A stretch of DNA of 64,000 nucleotides from Rathayibacter sp. VKM Ac-2857 (GTDB lineage Bacteria; Actinomycetota; Actinomycetes; Actinomycetales; Microbacteriaceae). Under the pieces are notes generated by a model. It saw nothing but the letters and a program-made list of their open reading frames with translations. It had not been told where the DNA came from and did no database searches. The stretch spans positions 806,001 to 870,000 of the forward strand of contig NZ_JABMLE010000001.1 in assembly GCF_013205025.1 (NCBI RefSeq), written 5' to 3'. Below are positions 4,672-57,474 of this stretch, in pieces. Position numbers and translations under genes: made by a program. The first letter of the stretch is position 1; each line of letters begins with the position of its first letter.

Positions 4672-4800
4672 CAGCGGGCGCAGAGCATGCGGAGCCGCGC
4701 ACGGCAGCAGGCGCAGAACATGCTGCGCCGCACGCGGCAGCGGGCGCGGAACATGCTGCGCCGCGCATCGCAGCTGGCGCAGAACATGCTGGTCGAGTAG
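4672..4800. repeat. 33-bp tandem repeat running into an inverted repeat
   Basis: Three 33-bp units begin at 4672, 4705 and 4738, each of the form cag-c/a-ggcgc-a/g-ga-a/g-catgc followed by a variable GC-rich tail. A fourth unit at 4771 merges after aacatgct into the standard repeat arm (ggtcgagtag). The period is a multiple of three, but neither strand gives a believable protein. It lies directly after the methyltransferase stop codon. Confidence 0.8.
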
Positions 4801-5002
4801 CCGCGCCAGCGGCGTATCGAGACCAACGTCTGCAGAACGGTGGATCTCGATACGCCCGCTTCGCGGGCTACTCGATCAGCATGAGACACGGCGTATCGAG
4901 CGGAAGGGACGCCTCCGGCACCAGCGCAGGGCGGGGAAGAGACCGATGTCCTTGGGGTGGGAGGATCTCGATACGCCCCTCCGGGGCTACTCGATCAGCA
5001 TG
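4786..5002. repeat. Dispersed inverted-repeat elements, copies B and C
   Basis: Copy B (4786-4883) is a complete pair of arms (atgctggtcgagtag ... ctactcgatcagcatg). Copy C (about 4886-5002) has a degenerate left arm (gcgtatcgag) and a complete right arm ending tactcgatcagcatg. Together with the 33-bp tandem units they fill the 394-bp gap between the convergent methyltransferase and aldo/keto reductase genes. Nothing coding is seen. Confidence 0.85.
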
Positions 5003-15845: not shown

Positions 15846-15869
15846 CCCGCGACGAGCGGCCCGCACCCC

Positions 15870-16222
15870 ATGCTGATCGAGTAGCCCGCGCGGCGCGCGT
15901 ATCGAGATCCACCCGCGTCTGAAGGACGAGTCTGCAGCCCCGCCCTCCTGGTGACGGCGGATCTCGATACACCCCTGCGGTGCTACTCGACCAGCAAGAG
16001 TGCAGACGTCTCTGCCAGGCCGACCCGCCACAGGATGCTGCTGCATGCTGATCGAGTAGCCCGCGCAGCGGGCGTATCGAGATCCACCCCATCACGCGGT
16101 CGGAGAACATCGCGCATCACCTCCTGATCGAGCACCGCGCACCCTGCATGCTGATCGAGCACCCCGCACACTGCATGCTGATCGAGCAGCCCGCGCAGCG
16201 GGCGTATCGAGATCGACCCGCC
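15870..16222. repeat. Dispersed inverted-repeat elements, copies D and E
   Basis: Copy D (15870-15994) has both arms, the right one ending ctactcgaccagcaag. From 16045 there are four left arms in a row (atgctgatcgag, some degraded to cctgatcgagcacc) with only two full gcgtatcgagat cores, as if the left arm had been multiplied. The block occupies the 394-bp gap before the thiolase gene, and its last arm touches the thiolase leader. Confidence 0.85.
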
Positions 16223-17931: not shown

Positions 17932-18819
17932 GTGCACTCCCCCGACGCGCTGCGGGCCGACAGCACCGTCTCGTCGCTGCGGACCTACCGCTACGTCCGG
18001 GTGTCACTGGTGGCCGCCGTGCTGTTCCTCGGCGTCGGAGTGACGTGGCACCTCGTCGCGCTCGGCCCGCTGCGCTCGATCAGCGCCGCCTACTACACGC
18101 CGGTGCGCTCGATCTTCGTCGGCGCGCTGTTCGCCGTCGCGGTCGGCCTCGTGGTCCTCGCCGGGCGCAGCCTCCGCCGCACGCTGCTCGTGATCGCCGG
18201 CTTCACCGCTCCCGTCATCGCCCTGGTGCCCGCGCCGATCCCCTCCGACGAGCTGGAGCTACTGACGGGCACCGGCTGCCCCGCGGGTGTCGCCCGTTGC
18301 GTCGCCCCCGGCACGGAGGACGCGATCGCCGTCGGGATGCTCGCCTACCTCGTCGTCGCCGCGGCCGCCCTGGTCGCCTCGCTCGCCTTCCTCGCCGTCG
18401 ACCGCGCGCTCGATCGCGGCGCCTGGCTGCGCGCCGGCGGTGTTGCCGTACTGCTCGCGGGCCTCGCCGTGCTCGCCACCACCCCGGCCTTCGCCGACCT
18501 CGGCCACTACGCCGCCGCCGCGCTCTTCTTCCTGCTCATCGCCGCCGTGGCCGGCATCCACGCCCACGCCGTGCGCTCTCAGGGCGTCCGCGGACCGGGC
18601 TCGCTCCGCGCCTACTCGCTCGCCTACTCGGCGCTCGCCGTCCTCCTGGCCGCGGTCGACGCCGCCGCGATCGTCCTCCTGCTGACCGGCCGGGCCTCGG
18701 CGCTCCTCGGCGAGCAGTGGCTGCTGATCGTCGAGGCGGTCGCTCTCGCCCTCTTCACCGCCTTCTGGATCCTGCAGACCGTCGAGAACTGGCGCGACCC
18801 GGACGCGGCGGCCCGCTGA
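17932..18819 (+). CDS. Multispanning membrane protein, DUF998-like
   Basis: A 295-residue membrane protein with about seven to eight hydrophobic helices (for example VSLVAAVLFLGVGVTW and VGALFAVAVGLVVLAG) and a soluble end. It resembles DUF998-type proteins and has no catalytic motif. The GTG start at 17932 is four bases after the PPOX stop, so it is probably cotranscribed. Its last ~430 bp, the intergenic space and the end of the convergent lipoprotein gene are duplicated at 25262-25981, on the other side of the nuclease island; this left copy is the intact one. Confidence 0.75.
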   Translation: MHSPDALRADSTVSSLRTYRYVRVSLVAAVLFLGVGVTWHLVALGPLRSISAAYYTPVRSIFVGALFAVAVGLVVLAGRSLRRTLLVIAGFTAPVIALVPAPIPSDELELLTGTGCPAGVARCVAPGTEDAIAVGMLAYLVVAAAALVASLAFLAVDRALDRGAWLRAGGVAVLLAGLAVLATTPAFADLGHYAAAALFFLLIAAVAGIHAHAVRSQGVRGPGSLRAYSLAYSALAVLLAAVDAAAIVLLLTGRASALLGEQWLLIVEAVALALFTAFWILQTVENWRDPDAAAR

Positions 18820-19108
18820 GCGGTCCTCCACCCGTCCGCCGTTCCGACACGACGACGGGAGGAGGCCTCGTACGAATCCGTCTCAGGTGCCGCCGCCGAG
18901 CGGATCGAGGCGGCAGCCCTCCAGCGCCGCCCGGCCCGCGTCCTCTTCGGCGAAGGGGTAGTCGTCATTCGAGACGTCGTTCGCGTAGTCGAACGTCGAG
19001 TACGAGGACGGCACGACCCCGAAGCGGATCAGGCACTCCACGATCAGCGTGGTCTCGTCAGCCCGATCCGGGTTGCGATGGGTCCAGCTGGAGAGGGCGC
19101 CGATCTCG
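18388..19108. repeat. Left direct repeat flanking the nuclease island (721 bp)
   Basis: This segment is repeated in the same orientation at 25262-25981 with only scattered substitutions and one base missing in the right copy. It covers the 3' part of the membrane-protein gene, the space between the convergent genes and the 3' part of the lipoprotein gene. Similarity fades sharply after the gatctcg at 19102-19108, with weaker similarity continuing to about 19200. Confidence 0.93.
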
Positions 19109-19200
19109 ATCTTTCCCATGCTGCGGCAGTAGTCCTTCACATCCGGGTCCCCGTAGAGCTCCACCGTCCTATGGAAGCGTTCAAGCAGACCTCGGCGCAT
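18883..19200 (-). pseudogene. Truncated/diverged copy of the lipoprotein gene
   Basis: The last ~106 codons match the C-terminal part of the complete lipoprotein at 25756-26445: near-identical from EIGALSSWTHRNPDRADETT to the end, and only loosely similar before it (RFHRTVELYGDPDVKDYCRSMGK, with about 25 residues missing). There is no signal peptide or lipobox. The open frame continues to 19311 into the island, but that part is unrelated. Similarity stops just before the HNH gene begins. It may be expressed as a short cytosolic peptide but is most likely a remnant. Confidence 0.8.
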
Positions 19201-19244
19201 AGCGAAGGTTGGCGTTTGCGCTCGGCTACGGGCCAGGATGGAGT

Positions 19245-20984
19245 GTGCCTGATCCAGAGGAAGTCGCTCACGCGAAGCCAACGTCGGCGACAGTTCGTGA
19301 GCTGTACTCACATGCGTTCACCTGTGCACAGCCGGAGTGCCCGGAATGGCTGTACCGGCAAGAATCGGGCGTTGCGCGACCGGTGCTGAACAGTCGGGTC
19401 TCGCACATTCATGCGCGGCAGCCGGGCGGGCCGCGCTGGAAGCCGGGGATGTCATTGGAAGAAAACCGGTCGGTCGAGAACCTGCTCTTGATGTGCATCC
19501 CGCACTCGTACGAGATCGATGAGCACGAGGCGCGGTTCTCACCAGAGTTGCTTCAGGAGTGGCGGATTGGCCAGATTCAGGAGTACTTCGACCGTCGTTA
19601 TGGTTGGCCGATCAACGAAGACGAGGCGGCTGAGGTGTTGGCGGTCTCATTTGACTCTCCGACGATCGCGGCGCCGGTGCTGACGTCGGTCGTCGCGGCT
19701 GCAGAGTTGTACGCACTCAGAGCTGTGAGCACCCGGCCTGGGCCGGCAGCTGCTGCGGCGGCCTGGCGGAGAACGCGCGCCGAGGCGAACGCGATGATGC
19801 CCGCGTACGACGACGAGGGTAATCGTGTGTACGTCGAGCCGTCGAACATGGAGCGGCAGCAGCACGAGCGAGCTGTGCTCGCGGCGTTAGATGAGGTGCG
19901 GGCGGTGTTAGAGCCGATGTACGAAGACGTCCTGGCGAAGATCGCGACCGCCCGTCACACGTCGGTGCGATCAGTTCCGTGGTGCGACTGGGTGGCACAT
20001 ACTGCCGATGAACTCCTTGCTGCTGCCTCAACCTGGCCTTGGGAACCGCCGTACGAAGACACTGACCGGCTGAGCGACGCTGCTGCCGAAGTGCGTGCCG
20101 CGGTCAGCGGCCTCGCCTCATCGCTTCGCGGAGAGAACCCGCCGCCGCCTCCGGCTGTGCCGGAACCGGTCGTCAGCGAGGCGGACGAAGCTCGTGCTGC
20201 TCTCGCTGAGGCGATGGCGGCTCACAACGCCCTCCTGGAGCGGGCCCGGCCGTGGGCCCGAGTGAAGACAAAAGCATACGACCCCGACCTGCACGCCGAG
20301 CTCGTTGTGGCAGCCGACGAAGTGACGCTGATACCGCAAGTGCTTTCCACCTACGCGTTTGCGTTGGGTTCAGTTGCCAGCCTGGCGGCGTCGGTCGCGC
20401 GGAACGCCACCGACGAAGAAGTGGCGGCACTCATCGGGGAGGACCGTGCGCGTCGGCCGTTGGTGGTTGCAGCGGCGCTATTGGTGGAGGTCTGGCGAGA
20501 AATGAGCGCCGCCGAACGTGGCGACCTGGCCGACCTTGCCCGCGAGAGTCTTCTCGAGGAGTTCGCCACCCAAGACTGGTCCGTCGAGGACGCATGGGTC
20601 GGGAACTATGTGCATGGGGCGACAGTTTTCACGCCGTGGTCGCATTGGATGTCAGCTGAGGTGGTGAAGGCTGGGCTCTCGAATGCGCTGGACGCCGCCC
20701 CCGCGCGTCTGGATGACGTCGTGCTCACATGCGCCCCCTGGCTAGAACGTGAGAGCAGGGCCGATGGGTCGCGGCAGGCTGCACGTTCCTACCGTGAACT
20801 GCCGCCTTGGTTTCCGACCGAAGCCATCGTCCGCGCCGCTGCAGTCCAGTATCCACACGTGGTCGCCACGACCTCCGACTACGACGACGGCGTCCCCGAA
20901 GGAACGCCCGAGGTGGAGCATCACCTGAGCCAGATCCTTCGCCTTGCAACGGAACCTACCGCTCAGACTGGTGACGCAAATTAG
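19245..20984 (+). CDS. HNH nuclease-domain protein with helical C-terminus
   Basis: A 579-residue protein. Residues ~10-100 form an HNH/zinc module: KPTSATVRELYSHAFTCAQPEC (C27, C32), VSHIHARQPGGPRW (H54, H56), then ENRSVENLLLMCIPHSYEID (N79, C84, H87). This matches the HNH layout common in anti-phage effectors, although the last knuckle is C-x2-H rather than C-x2-C. Residues ~110-579 are mainly helical and not recognised. The start is uncertain: GTG 19245 has AGGA/GGAG just upstream and gives the family-like beginning; TTG 19209 is in frame. Probably cleaves nucleic acid when activated; this is inferred. Confidence 0.7.
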   Translation: MPDPEEVAHAKPTSATVRELYSHAFTCAQPECPEWLYRQESGVARPVLNSRVSHIHARQPGGPRWKPGMSLEENRSVENLLLMCIPHSYEIDEHEARFSPELLQEWRIGQIQEYFDRRYGWPINEDEAAEVLAVSFDSPTIAAPVLTSVVAAAELYALRAVSTRPGPAAAAAAWRRTRAEANAMMPAYDDEGNRVYVEPSNMERQQHERAVLAALDEVRAVLEPMYEDVLAKIATARHTSVRSVPWCDWVAHTADELLAAASTWPWEPPYEDTDRLSDAAAEVRAAVSGLASSLRGENPPPPPAVPEPVVSEADEARAALAEAMAAHNALLERARPWARVKTKAYDPDLHAELVVAADEVTLIPQVLSTYAFALGSVASLAASVARNATDEEVAALIGEDRARRPLVVAAALLVEVWREMSAAERGDLADLARESLLEEFATQDWSVEDAWVGNYVHGATVFTPWSHWMSAEVVKAGLSNALDAAPARLDDVVLTCAPWLERESRADGSRQAARSYRELPPWFPTEAIVRAAAVQYPHVVATTSDYDDGVPEGTPEVEHHLSQILRLATEPTAQTGDAN

Positions 20985-21131
20985 GCACGCGGCCCGAGTG
21001 GCTCGCGCAGCCGGAATGGTGGCGCGTCTCCGGTACGTCTCGACGTCAGTTCCGCAGTGGATACGGACATGGGAAGAGTTCAGTCCGGACGCTCCGACGC
21101 TCGGACGCATCGAGACGACGGCAAAAAACGG

Positions 21132-22376
21132 ATGATGGCGATGGAAGAATTTTTTGACAAGCTGACGGGCACGACACCGCGGGTCGGGCTTCGACGCGAG
21201 ATCGACTCCGTGATCTGGGACATCGACGAGCGTCGCTTCTTGATCCGGGTGAAGGATGGCCGGATGTTTACAGCAGCCGCCCCGCCCAACGACGATCCGG
21301 AACGAGCGATCGTCCGAGTCGTCTATTTGTGGCACGACCGCCACATCGGTTTCGAGACGAATCGCGGCGATCACCTGCTTGGCATCATGCCTAGCCGTCA
21401 CAACTTGGCACCCGTGGATGGTCGACCTATCGTCTACTTGGATCAGAACCACTGGTCGACGCTGGCAAAGATGTCGAGGGCACCGGGTCGAGTTCCCGAG
21501 GTAGAGCGCAAGGCGGCGCTCGAGCTCATTGCACTCGTCGAGGCCGGAAAGATTATTCTGCCGATCTCCGCGGCGCATCACAGCGAGACCAGCCAATGGG
21601 TGGACGATGACTCCCGCTACCAGCTCGCGCTCACCATGCTCCGACTCAGCAGGGGGTGGCAGATGCGTGACCCTCTTGCCATTTGGGCGGAGGAACTACA
21701 GCGAGGCATCGCCATACACGCCGGAGCAGAACCCTCGTCCTCTGCACCGGTGTTCACCCTCGAACCATGGGTGATTCACGATGCCGAAGCGCACTCCACG
21801 GTGTGGGCAGATGACTCCGCCCAGCGCGGCCTACCTGCCGATTTGGAGTTCGCGTTCCAGTCAGCGCTTTCCACCATCGTCTACTTCGATCTCTTGCTCA
21901 GCACGGCCCCGATTCACCGCGAGGCGTCGCACGGATGGCGCGCCAAGCAACAACGAACCACTGATGCCCTCGCTGCCGACCATCGACCGAAGACTCAGAA
22001 GCGGCAGCTCGCTTACGCCTTCGCACTCGAGGACTTGAGCCGTGAAATGGCCAAAGCCGCGGCGCATACCAACGTCAGTACCGTCGCATTCGACAAGTGG
22101 TTGCGGAGCATCTGGAACAAAAAGGTGATCGAAACCCCTGCGGTCGGGATATTTTGCTCGATGTTCATGGATAAGCACCTCAATCCCCGCACAAAATGGC
22201 AAGACAACGACCTCAACGATCTCTTCTACCTATCCGCCGCCGCCGGATACGCTAACCACATCGTCGCCGAGCGGCACACAACTGGACTCATCGCCCAAGC
22301 AAGCAAGCGCCTGAACGCTTCTTTGGCCGCCCACCGCAGCATCACGGACCTCATGGCAAACCTTTCGCTCGCATAA
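21132..22376 (+). CDS. PIN-like nuclease-domain protein
   Basis: A 414-residue protein. The first ~95 residues are a beta-rich unit of unknown role. A PIN-like domain then starts with PIVYLDQNHWSTLAKM (D104), continues with an acidic SAAHHSETS, and ends with WQDNDLNDLFYLSAAAGYANHIVAE (D358, D360, D363), the acidic cluster expected at the end of such a domain. PIN-like enzymes are usually RNases. The start is uncertain: ATGs at 21132, 21135 and 21141, and the open frame reaches back to a GTG at 21057. It follows the HNH gene by 147 bp on the same strand and may be cotranscribed. A/T-richer than the flanks. Confidence 0.62.
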   Translation: MMAMEEFFDKLTGTTPRVGLRREIDSVIWDIDERRFLIRVKDGRMFTAAAPPNDDPERAIVRVVYLWHDRHIGFETNRGDHLLGIMPSRHNLAPVDGRPIVYLDQNHWSTLAKMSRAPGRVPEVERKAALELIALVEAGKIILPISAAHHSETSQWVDDDSRYQLALTMLRLSRGWQMRDPLAIWAEELQRGIAIHAGAEPSSSAPVFTLEPWVIHDAEAHSTVWADDSAQRGLPADLEFAFQSALSTIVYFDLLLSTAPIHREASHGWRAKQQRTTDALAADHRPKTQKRQLAYAFALEDLSREMAKAAAHTNVSTVAFDKWLRSIWNKKVIETPAVGIFCSMFMDKHLNPRTKWQDNDLNDLFYLSAAAGYANHIVAERHTTGLIAQASKRLNASLAAHRSITDLMANLSLA

Positions 22377-22478
22377 TAATGGCAACGCTCAACCCGCTAC
22401 CCCGTCCATGCCTCCGTCCCGCTGAGGCTCGGCTAGGGCGTAGCCGCAGAGCCTGGCCGCCGCCCCGCGCGCTCGAAC

Positions 22479-23603
22479 TCAGCCCAGGTAGTTTGCATGG
22501 TCCCAGTCGAGATCCGGCGCGAGTTCGACGTAGACGAGCGTCGCAGTGAGCACCAGGTAACTCAACGCCTCAAGGCCAAGCTGGTGCGAGCCCGGATGGC
22601 ATCCGTCCATCGCCAAGGCCCGCATCGCACTGCGCCAGAGTCCGCCGCTACTGCTTAGATCGAAGCCACGGAAGAACACGAGGACCGTCACGTTGTCGGC
22701 GACGGCTGCCATGACCATATCTGACACAGCCTGCGCCTCCTCCTCATCGAAGGCACCTCGATCCTGGGCGGAATCGAGCACGACGTAGACGTCACCGAAC
22801 GCCTGTTCGGGAGCAGGCTCGTCGCGAACCTCATCGGGACTGTACCGATACCCGTACTCTGCAAACGCCGGTGACTGCCACAGCAACATCTGTGCGAGGG
22901 TGCCGCGGATGACCGTCAGCTCACCGACCTGATCCCGTGAAGCCTCGCGGAAGTCATGGGCTCTCAGGATCCGAGTCACTATCTCGCCCCATACCTCGGT
23001 CGGGGGGTGCGCGAGCACGGATCTGAGAGGGTCGATTCGGTGCCCGAGCGGACGGCCCCGGAATGCTGGGCCGTCGATACGCATGCTCTGGTGGTTCACT
23101 AGCGCCGTAATTCGGGCGAGATTCATGATCGCGGTAGTCGGAACATGCACAGTAACGTCACCGGTGCGGTGGCGCATGGACGCGTAGAACGTCTGCTGCC
23201 ACTCTCGCTCGACCAACTCGCGGACGTCGATGCCGATGAATGTGTCGATCGACTCGACGTATACGACGAGGTAGACCGGCTCGGGTGCGGCGAACCAGAA
23301 CTTTAGGTGCTCGACGCCCACGGAGACCGCAACATGGTCGGAGTTGTCGACGGCGTCCGCCGACAGCGTCGCTGCGTGGACGCCTTTGAGCTGGAACCAG
23401 ACGCGGCCGGCCAGCGCATGCCAAAACGGCTGGTCATCACCCTTCTTCGTGCTCTTCTCACCTCGTGCGAACAGGTGGAGTCCGGTGTCAATACCGGCCC
23501 GATCGCGGCGGTATCCGACGATGACGCCGCTCTGGCTCAGCAGTGCCTCGAACTTCGGCATGTACCGATTCTCAAGCTCATCGTGCTCTCCCATACCCAC
23601 CAT
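22479..23603 (-). CDS. DUF4365-type PD-(D/E)XK nuclease-like protein
   Basis: A 374-residue protein. The N-terminal ~135 residues fit the DUF4365 family: a helix with Glu (MPKFEALLSQSG), Asp in RAGIDTGLHLFA (D39), the QxK in VWFQLKGVH (Q71, K73), and HLKFWFAAPEPVYLVVYV with FIGIDVRELV. This is the E...D...QxK pattern of restriction-type nucleases. The remaining ~240 residues are unrecognised. The frame extends upstream to 23705; the ATG at 23603 is chosen as the first giving family-like sequence, with 23594 and 23561 also possible. It is divergent from the HEPN gene and convergent with the PIN gene. Confidence 0.62.
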   Translation of the reverse strand: MVGMGEHDELENRYMPKFEALLSQSGVIVGYRRDRAGIDTGLHLFARGEKSTKKGDDQPFWHALAGRVWFQLKGVHAATLSADAVDNSDHVAVSVGVEHLKFWFAAPEPVYLVVYVESIDTFIGIDVRELVEREWQQTFYASMRHRTGDVTVHVPTTAIMNLARITALVNHQSMRIDGPAFRGRPLGHRIDPLRSVLAHPPTEVWGEIVTRILRAHDFREASRDQVGELTVIRGTLAQMLLWQSPAFAEYGYRYSPDEVRDEPAPEQAFGDVYVVLDSAQDRGAFDEEEAQAVSDMVMAAVADNVTVLVFFRGFDLSSSGGLWRSAMRALAMDGCHPGSHQLGLEALSYLVLTATLVYVELAPDLDWDHANYLG

Positions 23604-23734
23604 GCCACTGAGTTTGCCAGGATCTGACCGGAACGGACACACGCGGAGGAAGAGCAGGACAACAGCAATCTCGGCGTACGACCGCCCAAAGTTCGGCAAT
23701 CGCACTTACGCGCCCGCCGCGCTACCGTGGACTC

Positions 23735-25168
23735 ATGAGTGATCTTGAGCCGGAGGCGAGCGATGCCGTCGTTCCGAGCGCGACGCCAGGTGCCGAACTC
23801 GTGCGGTTTGAGTCAGGCGTGCGCAACATGCTTGAGGAGTTCGGGTTACCTACTGAGCAGCTGTTCGTGCCGGTTTCGGAGCGTGTCGCAATGGTTGGTA
23901 ACGTCAGCACAGTCCTGTCCGAGCTAGATGCCGGAATTCGTGCAGAGTCACACTACGTCTCGAAGATGGTAGCCGCCGCAACTGTCGGCCTCTTCGATGC
24001 TGCGCTCAACTACCTTTGGGATGAGCTCGTTTCGGCGTTGAGGTCGCGCGTCGCCGGATTTGACCTGGCGTACTTTTTCGACATCGCAGCAGGAACGAAT
24101 TCAGATCTTCGCAGATCCTTGAAAGGAGAGGACGACCTACCGTCCGTCGACGATGCACGCCTGCTGAGAGCTTCACGCGAGATCGGTCTCATTAGCGACG
24201 TTGGTTTCGCGCGGTTGGATCACATCCGTTTCATGCGCAACCACGCTAGTGCCGCGCACCCTAATCAGAACGAACTGACCGGTCTCGAACTAGTTACTTT
24301 CCTTCAGCTTTGCGTCCGCGAGGTTATCAACACACCGACCGATACTGTCACCGCACACACTGGCCGACTACTAGCAAACATGAAGCGGGATCTTCTCGAT
24401 CAGGCCTCGGTGGATACCGCCGCAGCTTTCTTCGATCAATTGCCCCCCGACCGTGTGGACACCCTCGCTAATGGTATATTCGGCCTCTACACCTCGCCGG
24501 ATCGCACACCAATAGTCGCAGACAATGTGCGGCTTCTTTGGCCGCGCTTATGGCCGTTCATTGGGGACGCAGCGCGCAGGAGCTTCGGGCTCCGTCACGG
24601 CCGGGCGAGCGCGAGCGCGGAGACCGACCTCGCAACAGCAGCACGCGAACTGATAGACCTGGTGAACGGCACCGCATACCTAACAACTGAAGTTAGGGCG
24701 ATCGACATGAGCGACGCACTCGACCTCCTTAATAGCGCGCACCACGGTTTCGACAACTTTTATAATGAGGCGACGCCCGCCCGCAGGGTGCTAGACCTCG
24801 CTGGCGAGAGAGGCGACGTCCCTGCGGCTATTCGGGAGCGCTATATTGGCGTCGTCGTCGATTGCTTCCTCGGAAACGGTTACGGAATTAGCGCAGCAGC
24901 AGCGGTGTCCTACAAGAAGATGTTAGGGCGCTTCTCTTCGACCGACGCTGGTGTCGCGCTACGGCTATTCCTAAACCCGGTTTACAGCTCGCTGATGAGC
25001 GGGCGGGTTGGTCAAGCACAGTGGGCCGAGCTCCTCGACATTCTCGAGCCGAAGCTGACCAGCACCATCGATCGCAACCTGATGACCGCCCTAAGGAGCT
25101 TCCCTGGGACGCCCGACAAACTCGGGAACGACAGCAACATCAAGCGACTTGCCGAGACTAGGGTCTGA
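23735..25168 (+). CDS. HEPN-domain protein, probable RNase
   Basis: A 477-residue, mostly helical protein. FARLDHIRFMRNHASAAHPNQN contains R168-N-x5-H175, the R-[N]-x4-6-H signature of HEPN ribonucleases found in toxins and abortive-infection proteins. The preceding ~100 residues form the helices expected of such a fold, and the C-terminal ~280 residues are unrecognised. TACCGT (23723-23728) is six bases before the ATG, so a leaderless promoter is likely. It is the last island gene; the right direct repeat begins about 90 bp later. The RNase role is inferred from the motif only. Confidence 0.65.
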   Translation: MSDLEPEASDAVVPSATPGAELVRFESGVRNMLEEFGLPTEQLFVPVSERVAMVGNVSTVLSELDAGIRAESHYVSKMVAAATVGLFDAALNYLWDELVSALRSRVAGFDLAYFFDIAAGTNSDLRRSLKGEDDLPSVDDARLLRASREIGLISDVGFARLDHIRFMRNHASAAHPNQNELTGLELVTFLQLCVREVINTPTDTVTAHTGRLLANMKRDLLDQASVDTAAAFFDQLPPDRVDTLANGIFGLYTSPDRTPIVADNVRLLWPRLWPFIGDAARRSFGLRHGRASASAETDLATAARELIDLVNGTAYLTTEVRAIDMSDALDLLNSAHHGFDNFYNEATPARRVLDLAGERGDVPAAIRERYIGVVVDCFLGNGYGISAAAAVSYKKMLGRFSSTDAGVALRLFLNPVYSSLMSGRVGQAQWAELLDILEPKLTSTIDRNLMTALRSFPGTPDKLGNDSNIKRLAETRV

Positions 25169-25261
25169 CCAACTGCCGAAGAGCTCTACGCGCGGTTTCC
25201 GCTTTCGCGGTGGCCGCCCGAATAGCACCGGAGGTGAATCCTCACTGACTGGGGCCTGAAA

Positions 25262-25692
25262 TTTCTCGCCGTCGACCGTGCGCTCGACCGAGACGCCTGG
25301 CTGCGCGCCGGCGGTACCGCGGTGCTTCTCGCGGGCCTCGCCGTGTTCTCCACTACCCTGCCTTCGCCGACCTCGGCCACTACGCCGCCGCCGCGCTCTT
25401 CTTCCTGCTCATCGCGGCCGTCGCCGGAATCCACGCTCACGCCGTGCGCTCGCAGGGCGTCCGCGGACCGGGCTCGCTCCGCGCCTACTCGCTCGCCTAC
25501 TCGGCGCTCGCCGTCCTCCTGGCCGCGGTCGACGCCGCCGCGATCGTCCTCCTGCTGACCGGCCGGGCCTCGGCGCTCCTCGGCGAGCAGTGGCTGCTGA
25601 TCGTCGAGGCGGTCGCCCTCGCCCTCTTCACCGCCTTCTGGATCCTGCAGACCGTCGAGAACTGGCGCGACCCGGACGCGGCGGCCCGCTGA
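25262..25692 (+). pseudogene. 3' fragment of the DUF998-like membrane protein gene
   Basis: This duplicates the last ~430 bp of the gene at 17932-18819. It has no start, and one base is missing at about 25371 (accctg-cctt against accccggcctt in the left copy), which shifts the frame of the upstream part. From about 25444 the frame again encodes the original C-terminus (VRGPGSLRAYSLAYSALAV ... WRDPDAAAR). It marks the right boundary of the island. Confidence 0.88.
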
Positions 25693-25981
25693 GCGGTCCT
25701 CCACCCGTCCGCCGTTCCGACACGACGACGGGAGGAGGCCTCGTGCGAATCCGTCTCAGGTGCCGCCTCCGAGCGGATCGAGGCGGCAGCCCTCCAGCGC
25801 CGCCCGGCCCGCGTCCTCTTCGGCGAAGGGGTAGTCGTCATTCGAGACGTCGTTCGCGTAGTCGGACGTCGAGTACGAGGACGGCACGACCCCGGAGCGG
25901 ATCAGGCACTCCACGATCAGCGTGGTCTCGTCAGCCCGATCCGGGTTGCGATGGGTCCAGCTGGAGAGGGCGCCGATCTCG
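25262..25981. repeat. Right direct repeat flanking the nuclease island (720 bp)
   Basis: Same-orientation copy of 18388-19108. The first ~180 bp carry most of the differences, including the single-base deletion; from about 25440 to 25981 the two copies are nearly identical. The identical part crosses the space between the convergent genes and enters the lipoprotein gene, ending in gatctcg. Confidence 0.93.
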
Positions 25982-26445
25982 GTCTCGCCCGAACTGCGGG
26001 AGCAGCCCTTCACATCCTCGTTGGCGGCATCGGCATCCGTATCCGGAGCGAACGTCAAGTGGAAAGACCCGTCGAGCGCGTACTCGTCGATGCCGTAGCC
26101 GAGATCCGCCACGCACCTGGTGAAGCGGTCGATCATCTCCGCGCGCTCCTCCTCCGAGACGGTCCCGTCCTCGATGACGGACCTGGTGAAGTCGTCCGTC
26201 GCCCGGTCGTAGGAGGCGGCGAACTCCGAGGCCCACGGACCACTGAAGGCAGGCCTGTCGAGAGCCGGTTCGGACTGCCTCTCCGAAGCAGCAGGATTCG
26301 AGCACGCGGTCAGGGCGAGGAGCAGCGTGGCGCTCACGATGAGGAGCGTCTTCCTGATTTTTCGGCCAGGCTGCCACTGCGGGTTGAGGCCAGGAGTCGC
26401 TGTCCAAGCCGGATTGTTCGAACCGGTACGGGTTAAGAGATGCAT
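25756..26445 (-). CDS. Secreted lipoprotein of unknown function
   Basis: A 229-residue protein. After a ~30-residue polar start comes KIRKTLLIVSATLLLALTAC, a signal peptide with an LTAC lipobox, so it should be lipid-anchored outside the membrane. The mature part has regularly spaced Cys residues (RCVADLG, VKGCSRS, VECLIR, EGCRLD) that may form disulfides. The ATG at 26445 overlaps the upstream stop as TGATG, showing translational coupling and supporting this start. Its 3' part is duplicated at 18883-19108. Function unknown. Confidence 0.75.
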   Translation of the reverse strand: MHLLTRTGSNNPAWTATPGLNPQWQPGRKIRKTLLIVSATLLLALTACSNPAASERQSEPALDRPAFSGPWASEFAASYDRATDDFTRSVIEDGTVSEEERAEMIDRFTRCVADLGYGIDEYALDGSFHLTFAPDTDADAANEDVKGCSRSSGETEIGALSSWTHRNPDRADETTLIVECLIRSGVVPSSYSTSDYANDVSNDDYPFAEEDAGRAALEGCRLDPLGGGT

Positions 26446-26768
26446 CACCGTCTGCCGACCTGCTCGAACTGATTCCGGACCCACCGAGGGTGGACGAGCT
26501 CTCGCCAGGCCCAGCCGGCCCAGGAGATCTCCGGGTCCGGGATCCGCCGCTTCCAGACGGAGGCGGCGTACGCCGCCGCGCCGAGGCCCGTGGCGGCGCC
26601 CGCGAGCAGCGCATTCCCGAGGGCGAAGGAATTCGCAGCGAGCATCGAGAGGAGAACGGCGAGGACGAGGACACCTGCCGCGAGCAGGCCTGGCCGCTGC
26701 CGCGGTGCGCGCCCTCCTCCGATCAGCAGGCCCGCAAGGAGACCTCCGACGAGAGCGGCGACGGTCAC
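26445..26768 (-). CDS. Small membrane protein, coupled to the lipoprotein
   Basis: A 107-residue protein with about three hydrophobic segments (VAALVGGLLAGLLIGGG, LLAAGVLVLAVLLSML, ALLAGAATGLGAAAYAA) and a polar C-terminus ending WVRNQFEQVGRR. GTG at 26768 is inferred because upstream codons in this frame are Arg/Ser-rich and not membrane-like. Its stop overlaps the lipoprotein start (TGATG). Not recognised; it may help place or protect the lipoprotein. Confidence 0.55.
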   Translation of the reverse strand: MTVAALVGGLLAGLLIGGGRAPRQRPGLLAAGVLVLAVLLSMLAANSFALGNALLAGAATGLGAAAYAASVWKRRIPDPEISWAGWAWRELVHPRWVRNQFEQVGRR

Positions 26769-29050: not shown

Positions 29051-29143
29051 GTGCTGACCCTACTGCGCGGCCGCGGCGGTCGAAGGGGGTGGACCGGAGC
29101 GCCGGAAAGCGGCAGGGGCTCGAGCAGGGACGATCGCCGGATC

Positions 29144-29604
29144 ATGCTGGTCGAGAAGCGCCGCAGGCGCGTATCGAGACCCACGTCCATCAGGAGGGCG
29201 GGTCTGCAACCTCGACCGCCGGCGACGGTGGATCTCAATACGCCCGCTGCGCGGGCTACTCGATCAGCATGCAGGGGCCCGCCCGCTCATGAAGGGGCGA
29301 CCCCGGCGGACTCCATGCTGGTCGAGTAGCGCCGCAGGCGCGTATCGAGACCCACATCCATCAGGAGGGCGGGTCTGCAACCTCGACCGCGGGCGACGGT
29401 GGATCTCGATACGCCCGCTGCGCGGGCTACTCGATCAGCAGGCAGAGCACGCCCGCCCGAGAAAGGGCGGACTTCATGCTGGTCGAGTAGCCCCGGAAGG
29501 GGCGTATCGAGACCCATGTCCATCAGGAGATCGAGTCTGCAGACTCGACTGCGGGCGACAGTGGATCTCGATACGCCCGCTGCGCGGGCTACTCGATCAG
29601 CATG
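29144..29604. repeat. Dispersed inverted-repeat elements, three in a row (F, G, H)
   Basis: Elements at 29144-29271, 29315-29440 and 29476-29604 each have a left arm atgctggtcgag-a/t-agcg/c, an internal ~35-bp spacer with the near-constant catcaggaggcgggtctgca, and a right arm ctactcgatcagca. They are spaced 160-170 bp apart. They fill the 623-bp gap between the GNAT and galU genes; nothing coding is seen there. Confidence 0.9.
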
Positions 29605-29673
29605 CGGGGGCCGCGGAGCGGTCCCGCGAGATGCAGCGCCTGCGCAGCAGGCTCCGCGAAGCGGGCTCCGCGC

Positions 29674-49545: not shown

Positions 49546-50243
49546 GCTGGTCGAGTGGCCGCCGCAGGCGGCGTATCGAGCGGCGAAGCCGCTTCGCGTC
49601 TCGGTGGTGGAGGAAAGGACGCGGCTGCGCCGCGTCATGCTGGTCGAGTAGCCCCGCAGGGGCGTATCGAGACCCGCCTTCGTCAGCAGAGCGGGTCTGC
49701 AGACTCGTCCTTCTGACGCTGGTCGATCTCGATACGCCCGCTCCGCGGGCTACTCGATCAGCATGAGAGGACGATCAGCAGAAGATGCCTGCAGTCATGC
49801 TGGTCGAGCAGCCTCCGCAGGCGGCGTATCGAGCGGCGAAGCCGCTTCGCGTCTCGCTGGTGAGGGAGAGGACGCGGCTGCGCCGCATCATGCTGGTCGA
49901 GTAGCCCCGCAGGGGCGTATCGAGACCCGCCTTCGTCAGCAGAGCGGGTCTGCAGACTCGGCTTCTGACGCCGGTGGATCTCGATACGCCCGCTCCGCGG
50001 GCTACTCGATCAGCATGGTTCTCCCCATACGCACTAGGTGAGCTTTCTCAGCAGACCCACCCCTGTCGGACGCGGGGATCTATTTGGAAAAGACGCCCGC
50101 CTGCATGCTGGTCGAGTAGACCCGAAGGGGCGTATCGAGACCCACCTACCGCAAGAACGTCGGTCTCGTCCCCGCCCCGCGATGGCGCCGAAGGCGCCCC
50201 CTCCGCTCGATACGCCCACTCCGCGGGCTCGTCGATCAGCAAG
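49546..50243. repeat. Inverted-repeat cluster, one ~220-bp unit duplicated (I, J) plus copy K
   Basis: Units I (49546-49765) and J (49797-50016) are about 220 bp each and nearly identical. Each has a first arm (ctggtcgag-t/c-...), a gcgtatcgagcggcgaagcc block, a second arm (atgctggtcgagtagccccg), the spacer ccttcgtcagcagagcggg and the right arm ctactcgatcagcatg. Copy K (50105-50243) is shorter and diverged. They take up almost all of the 817-bp gap between the sugar kinase and PhnB-like genes; no gene is seen. Confidence 0.9.
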
Positions 50244-56635: not shown

Positions 56636-57474
56636 ATGCTGATCGAGCAGCCCGCGCAGCGGGCGGCACCCTGCTGATCGAGCAATCCGCGCAGCGGGCC
56701 TCCCCATGCTGATCGAGCAGTCCGCGCAGCGGGCGTATCGAGATCCACCACCGTCAGAAGCCGAGCCTGCAGACCCGCCCTGCTGATGACCGCGGGTCTC
56801 GATACGCCCCTCCGGGGCTACTCGACCAGCATGCAGCGGCGACCCACTGGACGCGCGGCGGTGTCCGGCAAAGCTGCAGGGCCCGGTCCGGGTCCACTCG
56901 CGCGCGTCCACACTTCCGACTGGACGCGGGCGGGGCCCTGCTCCGGGTGCGAGGCCCGTTGCGGGTCCGTTCGCGCAGTCATGCTGATCGAGTAGCCCGC
57001 GAAGCGGGCGTATCGAGATCCACCACCTTCAGAAGCCGAGCCTGCAGACCCGCCCTGCTGATGACCGCGGGTCTCGATACGCCCCTCCGGGGCTACTCGA
57101 CCAGCATGCAGCGGCGACCCACTGGACGCGCGGCGGTGTCCGGCAAAGCTGCAGGGCCCGGTCCGGGTCCACTCGCGCGCGTCCACACTTCCGACTGGAC
57201 GCGGGCGGGGCCCTGCTCCGGGTGCGAGGCCCGTTGCGGGTCCGTTCGCGCAGTCATGCTGATCGAGTAGCCCGCGAAGCGGGCGTATCGAGATCCACCA
57301 CCTTCAGAAGCCGAGCCTGCAGACCCGCCCTGCTGATGACCGCGGGTCTCGATACGCCCCTCCGGGGCTACGCGACCAACATGCTTGGGCAAGCGGGGGG
57401 GGGGGGGGGGGGGGAGACGGCAGGGTCTTTCTCGGGACGCGAGGCCCGTTGCAAGGCCGCTCGCGCAGTCCTGC
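56636..57474. repeat. Tandem array of 275-bp units built from the inverted repeat
   Basis: Copies start at 56706, 56981 and 57256 (period 275 bp). The first two units are almost identical over their length, including arms, the spacer cttcagaagccgagcctgca, and a ~150-bp non-palindromic tail (cgcgcgtccacacttccgac and similar). The third is interrupted by a run of G at 57395 and decays by about 57474. Two short degenerate left arms precede the array (56636, 56672). It fills most of the 922-bp gap between the monooxygenase and the toxin locus; no gene is visible. Confidence 0.9.
57395..57414. repeat. Run of 20 consecutive G
   Basis: An uninterrupted poly-G tract in the third repeat unit, about 140 bp before the toxin-locus gene at 57556. 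Such a tract is prone to slippage, and its exact length in the assembly is uncertain. Confidence 0.9.

Follow-up and report, generated by a model that had tools for sequence, protein, structure and literature searches.

What is a GC-poor block of four nuclease-type genes doing in an actinobacterial chromosome, and do its genes form one defence system? We addressed this question in a stretch of 64,000 nucleotides from Rathayibacter sp. VKM Ac-2857 (contig NZ_JABMLE010000001.1, positions 806,001 to 870,000, in a genome of 4.6 Mb), which is called the window below and to which all coordinates refer. An earlier note on this DNA had described four adjacent genes, named P1 to P4 here, each with a different nuclease signature, as a candidate new defence system. 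Our results show that the block at 19145-25261, which holds these four open reading frames (ORFs), is a foreign, accessory insertion. We consider it probable, with some reserve, that a few antiviral modules, each self-contained and independent of the others, were acquired here as a small stack, and that the block is not one four-gene machine. The P4 family is the part worth following.

A foreign block between two direct repeats

The four long ORFs lie side by side where the earlier note had placed them, and the limits of the block were set from base composition and flanking repeats. Its guanine-plus-cytosine (GC) content is 61.8%, versus 74.7% and 71.1% in the flanks, in agreement with the lower value claimed before, and the GC content at third codon positions is 0.66-0.75 in P1-P4 versus 0.95 and 0.98 in two neighbouring genes. 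The two genes that flank the block gave no meaningful Pfam match. The direct repeats noticed earlier were also recovered: the left copy (18388-19144) and the right copy (25262-26017) are identical at 722 of 757 positions with one gap, far beyond chance. The block starts directly after the left copy, and the right copy starts 93 bp past the end of P4. Two 3' gene parts lie in the left copy, one from a membrane-protein gene (17932-18819) and, on the minus strand, one from a lipoprotein-like gene copy; the right copy contains the 3' parts of the membrane-protein gene and of an intact lipoprotein-like gene (25756-26484, minus strand). A chimeric frame at 18883-19311 on the minus strand fuses the 3' part of the lipoprotein-like gene copy in the left repeat to island-side sequence.

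Strains were compared, as the earlier note had suggested. Among 15 genomes of the genus, the block is held by its own genome alone, and matches of about 40-45 bp in G527 and G045 were taken as chance. Two congeneric genomes, G529 and G527, have an empty site: the repeat stretch occurs once there, with both flanks joined to this single copy. A further genome, G523, has a 69% match to the lipoprotein-like gene; it gave no site alignment at E ≤ 1e-20 and is uninformative on the empty site. The insertion offers a natural and clean example of an island that lacks a recombinase gene and whose empty site is known in sister species.

The repeats themselves may tell how the island arrived. The two copies were compared with each other and with G529 in windows of 50 bases. 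Their core (about 18576 to 19090) is identical at 509 of 515 positions. At the left end, the left copy matches G529 at 45-49 of 50 bases per window and the right copy is less similar (172/193 over the four windows beginning at 25256). At the other end it is the right copy that matches G529, at 49/50 and 50/50, and the left copy falls to 40/50 and 22/49. In each copy, therefore, the outer end is native and the one that faces the island is divergent and foreign. On this ground the island would have entered by a single homologous crossover of a circular DNA carrying about 0.75 kb of homology. This account carries a cost of its own, as gene conversion must be assumed in addition to the crossover to account for the identity of the core. 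The near identity of the core would also fit a duplication of the flanking repeat in place, for instance by unequal exchange, with the island inserted or substituted later by another route. The divergent ends on the island side of each copy, which are expected if they arrived with the island, make such a sequence of events rather improbable in our view.

The window also carries clusters of palindromic repeats with units of about 130-143 bp, REP/BIME-like by inspection, at 2186-2283, 4785-5002, 15869-16218, 29143-29605, 49636-50241 and 56665-57384. As remarked in the earlier note, none of these dispersed repeats lies inside the block; with six clusters in 64 kb, their absence from a 6-kb block means little.

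The P4 family

P4 (23735-25168, plus strand) begins with a HEPN-type helical bundle carrying the motif R168-N169-x5-H175 and continues as a C-terminal alpha-solenoid. A genome scan, whose patterns did not contain the RN motif, found 189 related stretches, from which 80 loci were kept. The motif RN-x5-H, with six residues between R and H, is present at all 80 loci and in 78 of 78 aligned rows. Three loci are absent from the alignment and the tree, namely L109, which repeats L108, and L114 and L126 (short frame); the motif is present in each of them. Residues R168, N169, S172, A174, H175, P176 and N177 are invariant in the 78 rows; E. coli-type copies keep R, N and H, with variable residues between them, and one partial distant match, L013, is without the motif. 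The whole-chain model is all helical (pLDDT 90.8, pTM 0.68) and was read as a bundle followed by a helical repeat, and the HEPN domain alone was modelled with pLDDT 92.9 and pTM 0.89. In the models the motif sits at a helix end and the start of a loop, as described for HEPN domains (PMC3710099). Thus, the invariant motif and the confident model, together with weak fold matches, support the HEPN signature claimed for this gene fairly well.

Several results weigh against this assignment. The fold search with the domain gave no match at E ≤ 0.001, its first rows being bestrophin chains that look like chance; the first HEPN chain, 2q00, came at rank 10 (E 1.3, prob 0.84, TM 0.60 by target). Other HEPN structures in the same search (HI0074, HepT, MtlR) had E above 1; 2q00, 1jog and MtlR are listed as HEPN structures in PMC3710099. 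The hhalign comparison of P4 with the HEPN protein of pEK499 reached 1.8% probability, aligned at the RN motif alone. Moreover, many HEPN families are described with an Ex3[KR] motif, which P4 lacks in that spacing (E97, R103). The whole-chain fold search returned weak solenoid matches in the PDB and nothing useful among viral models, and a PDB profile search with P4 returned none.

The family is apparently unnamed, as far as the literature searched and Pfam, PADLOC 2023 and NCBIfam go. Pfam on the 78 members gave scattered unrelated families in 1-3 members (E 0.0003-0.09), among them Abi_C in one member (0.083). As an aside, 1 of 59 order genomes has Abi_C, which was not used further. PADLOC 2023 gave one match on 12 members (E 0.035) and none for the P4 of the window, for which NCBIfam, run on this protein only, gave no meaningful match either. 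The PHROG family phrog_27609, whose function is unassigned, does match P4 (1e-53), and the gene is annotated as "hypothetical protein" in 11 of 11 annotated records examined. Literature searches on HEPN or PIN with defence terms, on DUF4365, on four protein accessions and on phrog_27609 gave no paper that we recognised as describing P4. Other HEPN systems, which may include relatives of P4, are reported in PMC9519451, where 6 of 21 systems have remote HEPN similarity, and in PMC13092281 (DefensePredictor), where four further validated HEPN-domain systems stand besides a CBS-HEPN protein.

Relatives of P4 are rare in the phylum of the host and common on plasmids. Of 376 phylum genomes, 4 have the gene, as does 1 of 150 in the family, its own included in both counts; one of the four is the partial L013. 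Plasmid records with the gene number 76, of which 70 cover 80% or more of the query. Among 5426 E. coli genomes 54 have it (49 of them over 80% or more), at 34 chromosomal and 20 plasmid places. There are also 23 viral-contig loci, and the scanned neighbours there (108 of the 124 listed were scanned with PHROGs) include tail, tape-measure, endolysin and integrase families; a phage collection gave no match. By record title, 77 aligned loci fall into 14 phyla, and two loci carry no phylum; nine of the phyla are represented by one row, often a single contig of a metagenome-assembled genome (MAG), and among these is one archaeal MAG. Among the 80 loci, the closest relatives are in a Propionibacterium MAG (79% identity) and in Demequina (76%). 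A relative of 515 amino acids with 42.7% identity has the same length and identity in the same-phylum genome G410 and in the Acidimicrobiaceae MAG contig L080. The tree sorts by phylum (16 changes, the minimum being 13), so that frequent exchange between phyla is not supported.

Across the 80 loci, P4 is without a constant partner gene. Within 6 kb, the commonest neighbour family occurs at six loci (recombinase-like), followed by dehydrogenase-like and HsdM-like families at five each, as named by inspection. PADLOC models for type I restriction-modification subunits and methyltransferases matched some of the nearest neighbours (143 of 144 scanned), with at most three members per model; these matches were not used as proof, since there is no random baseline and the number of distinct proteins is not given.

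Some individual places of P4 deserve mention. P4-type genes are carried by E. coli and Acinetobacter resistance-gene plasmids and by an E. coli chromosomal island that also has integrases and an ABC-three-component gene (L007 7983-9413, L009 7989-9389, L028 10001-11431). A diverged P4-type gene (L029 11851-13209) stands in an E. coli chromosome between an ogr-like gene and tail genes, in an apparent P2-like prophage remnant. In two Okeania MAGs (L089, L126), the gene is apparently placed among hydrogenase-maturation-like genes, by inspection.

The three companion genes

The signatures claimed for the other three genes fared unequally: profiles upheld HNH in P1 and DUF4365 in P3 and gave no support to PIN in P2. 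P1 runs on the plus strand from 19209 (TTG) or 19245 (GTG) to 20984, with an HNH domain at about residues 26-125 followed by a long C-terminal region to which no fold was assigned. Within residues 26-125, the protein matches PADLOC HNH models of CBASS-type and candidate defence proteins, as well as PDB entries 9om4, 8ysq, 7rwm and 7rwk, whose chains are named HNH endonuclease or SAVED protein. An HNH domain of effector type is thus well supported by these sequence matches. Literature searches on 9OM4 or PDC-M68 found no paper. Relatives occur in 11 of 356 phylum genomes, its own included, and are full length in two; besides its own genome, the full-length one is in G348 (31% identity), and the nine others are short, eight of them lying in the HNH region. 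The G348 relative lies inside an element with an integrase-like ORF, by inspection, and adjoins a match to the PADLOC candidate PDC-S31 (E 9e-12). A Pfam integrase family matched 2 of 26 proteins scanned, which were not named. In viral contigs P1 was found neither as a single sequence nor as an alignment.

P3 lies on the minus strand, from 22479 to 23705 (GTG) or 23603 (ATG), and carries the PD-(D/E)XK-like DUF4365 domain at residues 53-199, followed by a C-terminal region without an assigned fold. Its score against Pfam DUF4365 is 29.1 bits, with a curated cut-off of 24.3, and it contains FQLKG; for TmuRE, PMC10810196 names Q62 and K64 as residues of DUF4365 that may form its active site. The nuclease-type label of P3 is, at the level of sequence, well supported. 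The DUF4365 domain is present in 6 of 100 family genomes, its own included, and the whole protein was found nowhere but in itself among 356 phylum genomes. One partial match on plasmids covers residues 36-165, and the single sequence found nothing in viral contigs.

P2 (21057, GTG, or 21132, ATG, to 22376, plus strand) is PIN-like by its motif (YLDQN, E, D..D, E) and carries a long insert. The acidic residues D104, E152, E188, D360, D363 and E380 are invariant in eight aligned relatives, and the distance from E152 to D360, about 200 residues, is longer than in small PIN domains. The PIN label of this gene is one of motif only. Pfam, PADLOC and NCBIfam gave no match to P2, the PDB profile search gave one meaningless match, and a search of the own genome with the PIN profile PF01850 gave nothing at E ≤ 1e-8. 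Telling against the label is the hhalign comparison with 20 PIN proteins (20 of 30 PIN loci were usable): E was 0.09-0.12, outside the acidic motif, with the catalytic acids unaligned. As controls, six column shuffles gave 0.30-0.94 and P4 gave 0.44.

Relatives of P2 occur in 8 of 376 phylum genomes and 3 of 150 family genomes, its own included in both; the other two family matches span about 90-110 residues (E 1e-4 to 3.5e-4). They are also found on eight plasmid records, and in viral contigs the single sequence gave nothing and the alignment three short matches. The surroundings of four relatives were scanned. Wadjet JetB, JetC and JetD are near one of them (L056); Cas3 and Cas6e of a type I-E cas locus, with two AbiTii genes, near another (L055); TmtA near a third (L054); and a gene annotated as type ISP restriction/modification near a fourth (L006). 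The context at these four loci, which make up the whole neighbourhood scan and have no baseline, speaks for defence. Two further relatives, L027 and L030, were outside the scan. The first, on a Streptomyces plasmid (6001-6974), is annotated as two genes, matches in two pieces and may be broken; the other is a P2-like gene of 315 codons in the filamentous Pseudomonas phage PfAC03 (9086-10033), with a match over 80 residues.

Proposed function, alternatives and known systems

A defence role of the four genes is suggested by their context, and the earlier notion of a stacked defence island finds support here as an inference. The observed starting point is an insertion between two copies of a 757-bp chromosomal stretch, absent from sister genomes. 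Each gene may then encode an effector joined to a sensing or regulatory region of its own. We propose P4 as a one-gene abortive-infection RNase, a prediction drawn from its motif, its model and analogy with known HEPN proteins; RNase activity is expected because of the RN-x5-H motif (PMC3710099, section 6). At rest, the HEPN domain would be inactive. The alpha-solenoid might recognise a product of the phage or a change that infection brings about, by analogy with Tha (PMC11087260), and the HEPN domain, probably as a dimer by the same analogy, would cut RNA by means of R168, N169 and H175. Translation would stop and the infected cell would die or become dormant, with neighbouring cells spared. 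P1 and P3 would act on DNA, and P2 on RNA if it is a PIN nuclease.

This proposal as a whole has its support in sequence, models, distribution and the insertion. What weighs against it is that the defence-gene neighbourhoods of P2 and P4 stand without a matched baseline.

The genes might instead be addiction or plasmid-maintenance toxins, or selfish cargo from a plasmid, without an antiviral role. PIN domains are frequent toxins, as are HEPN domains, and relatives of P4 and P2 are common on plasmids. For HEPN domains, the toxin role is also found in PMC3710099. Nevertheless, no antitoxin-like partner recurs near P4, which at about 480 amino acids with a long solenoid is unlike small toxins and occurs in viral contigs and chromosomes as well, and the relatives of P2 adjoin defence genes. 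We therefore regard a purely toxin or cargo role as unlikely.

Another rival to independent modules is the cooperation that the earlier note had proposed, with P1-P4 as one defence system that would set off several nucleases together. The four genes do stand side by side in one acquired block, and P1 and P2 share a direction with a short gap between them. P3, on the other hand, is on the opposite strand, so that P1-P4 are not one operon, and the search by tblastn for a joint system in P4, P2 and P1 loci did not find one. No relative of P1-P3 was near P4 at any of the 80 genome loci (flanks on both sides reach 9 kb or more in 48 of these and 4 kb or more in 56), nor did a second gene of the four appear in the 23 viral-contig loci, the plasmid and E. 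coli loci of P4 (tblastn), the long-flank P2 loci (L006, L027, L030, L054-L056) or the full-length P1 locus (L053). The remaining loci have flanks of about 1.5 kb and little test power, and the test covers P1, P2 and P4 loci, P3 being too rare to serve. Among these loci, none but the window holds two of the four genes; concerted action appears very improbable.

Some HEPN and PIN proteins serve RNA processing or DNA repair, and one or more of the genes could in principle be housekeeping; with all four rare and patchy and the site empty in sister genomes, we give this hardly any weight.

Within the favoured reading of independent modules, a bolder pair of ideas seems possible to us, though short of probable when taken jointly. 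P4 may represent an unnamed pan-bacterial, perhaps archaeal, class of one-gene immune receptors, in which a HEPN RNase is switched on directly, and without a partner, by a solenoid that reads a conserved phage feature; and the island may travel among related species in circular form, using homology and no integrase to insert again at the same place. If appearances are right, P4 would be a complete immune receptor in one chain, present on resistance plasmids, prophages and chromosomes of many phyla. Its predicted catalytic residues could be mutated at once, and its trigger and RNA target would be directly testable.

Each gene has likenesses among known systems. P1 shares its HNH domain with CBASS HNH-SAVED effectors (PDB 7rwm, 7rwk, 8ysq), which have SAVED, whereas the match of P1 ends after the HNH region, near residue 125. 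A CBASS effector was accordingly set aside: there is no SAVED match, and no cyclase gene was recognised in the island, where the scan covered P1-P4 and the two flanking genes. P3 shares a DUF4365 domain with Q-x-K with the DUF4365-APAZ nuclease of SPARDA (PMC10810196), which comes with APAZ and a short Argonaute; P3 has no PADLOC match and no short Argonaute is among the island genes, so that this identity was rejected too. Relatives of P2 are housed in defence islands rich in Wadjet, CRISPR or restriction genes, whereas the island of the window holds just four genes.

For P4, the pEK499_p136-like HEPN family (PMC3710099, Table 1) is similar in that its HEPN protein is carried by E. coli plasmids and conserves Rx4-6H. 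The HEPN protein on the listed 47-kb stretch of pEK499, taken for p136 although this name is absent from the record, has 166 amino acids and no solenoid, unlike P4, and with the hhalign value given above this candidate was rejected. DS-11 (CS-11 type), a one-protein CBS-HEPN system, resembles P4 in fusing HEPN to a putative sensor, which is CBS in the one and a solenoid in the other, as compared by description (PMC13092281). Tha, a prophage-borne HEPN anti-phage protein of S. aureus, is like P4 a single protein whose motif starts with R-N. By its description in PMC11087260, Tha-1 has 301 amino acids with a C-terminal HEPN domain and RNSIMH (Rx4H), whereas P4 has 477 amino acids with an N-terminal HEPN domain, Rx6H and a C-terminal solenoid. 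The RNase-based abortive defence of Tha is the analogy that we propose for P4.

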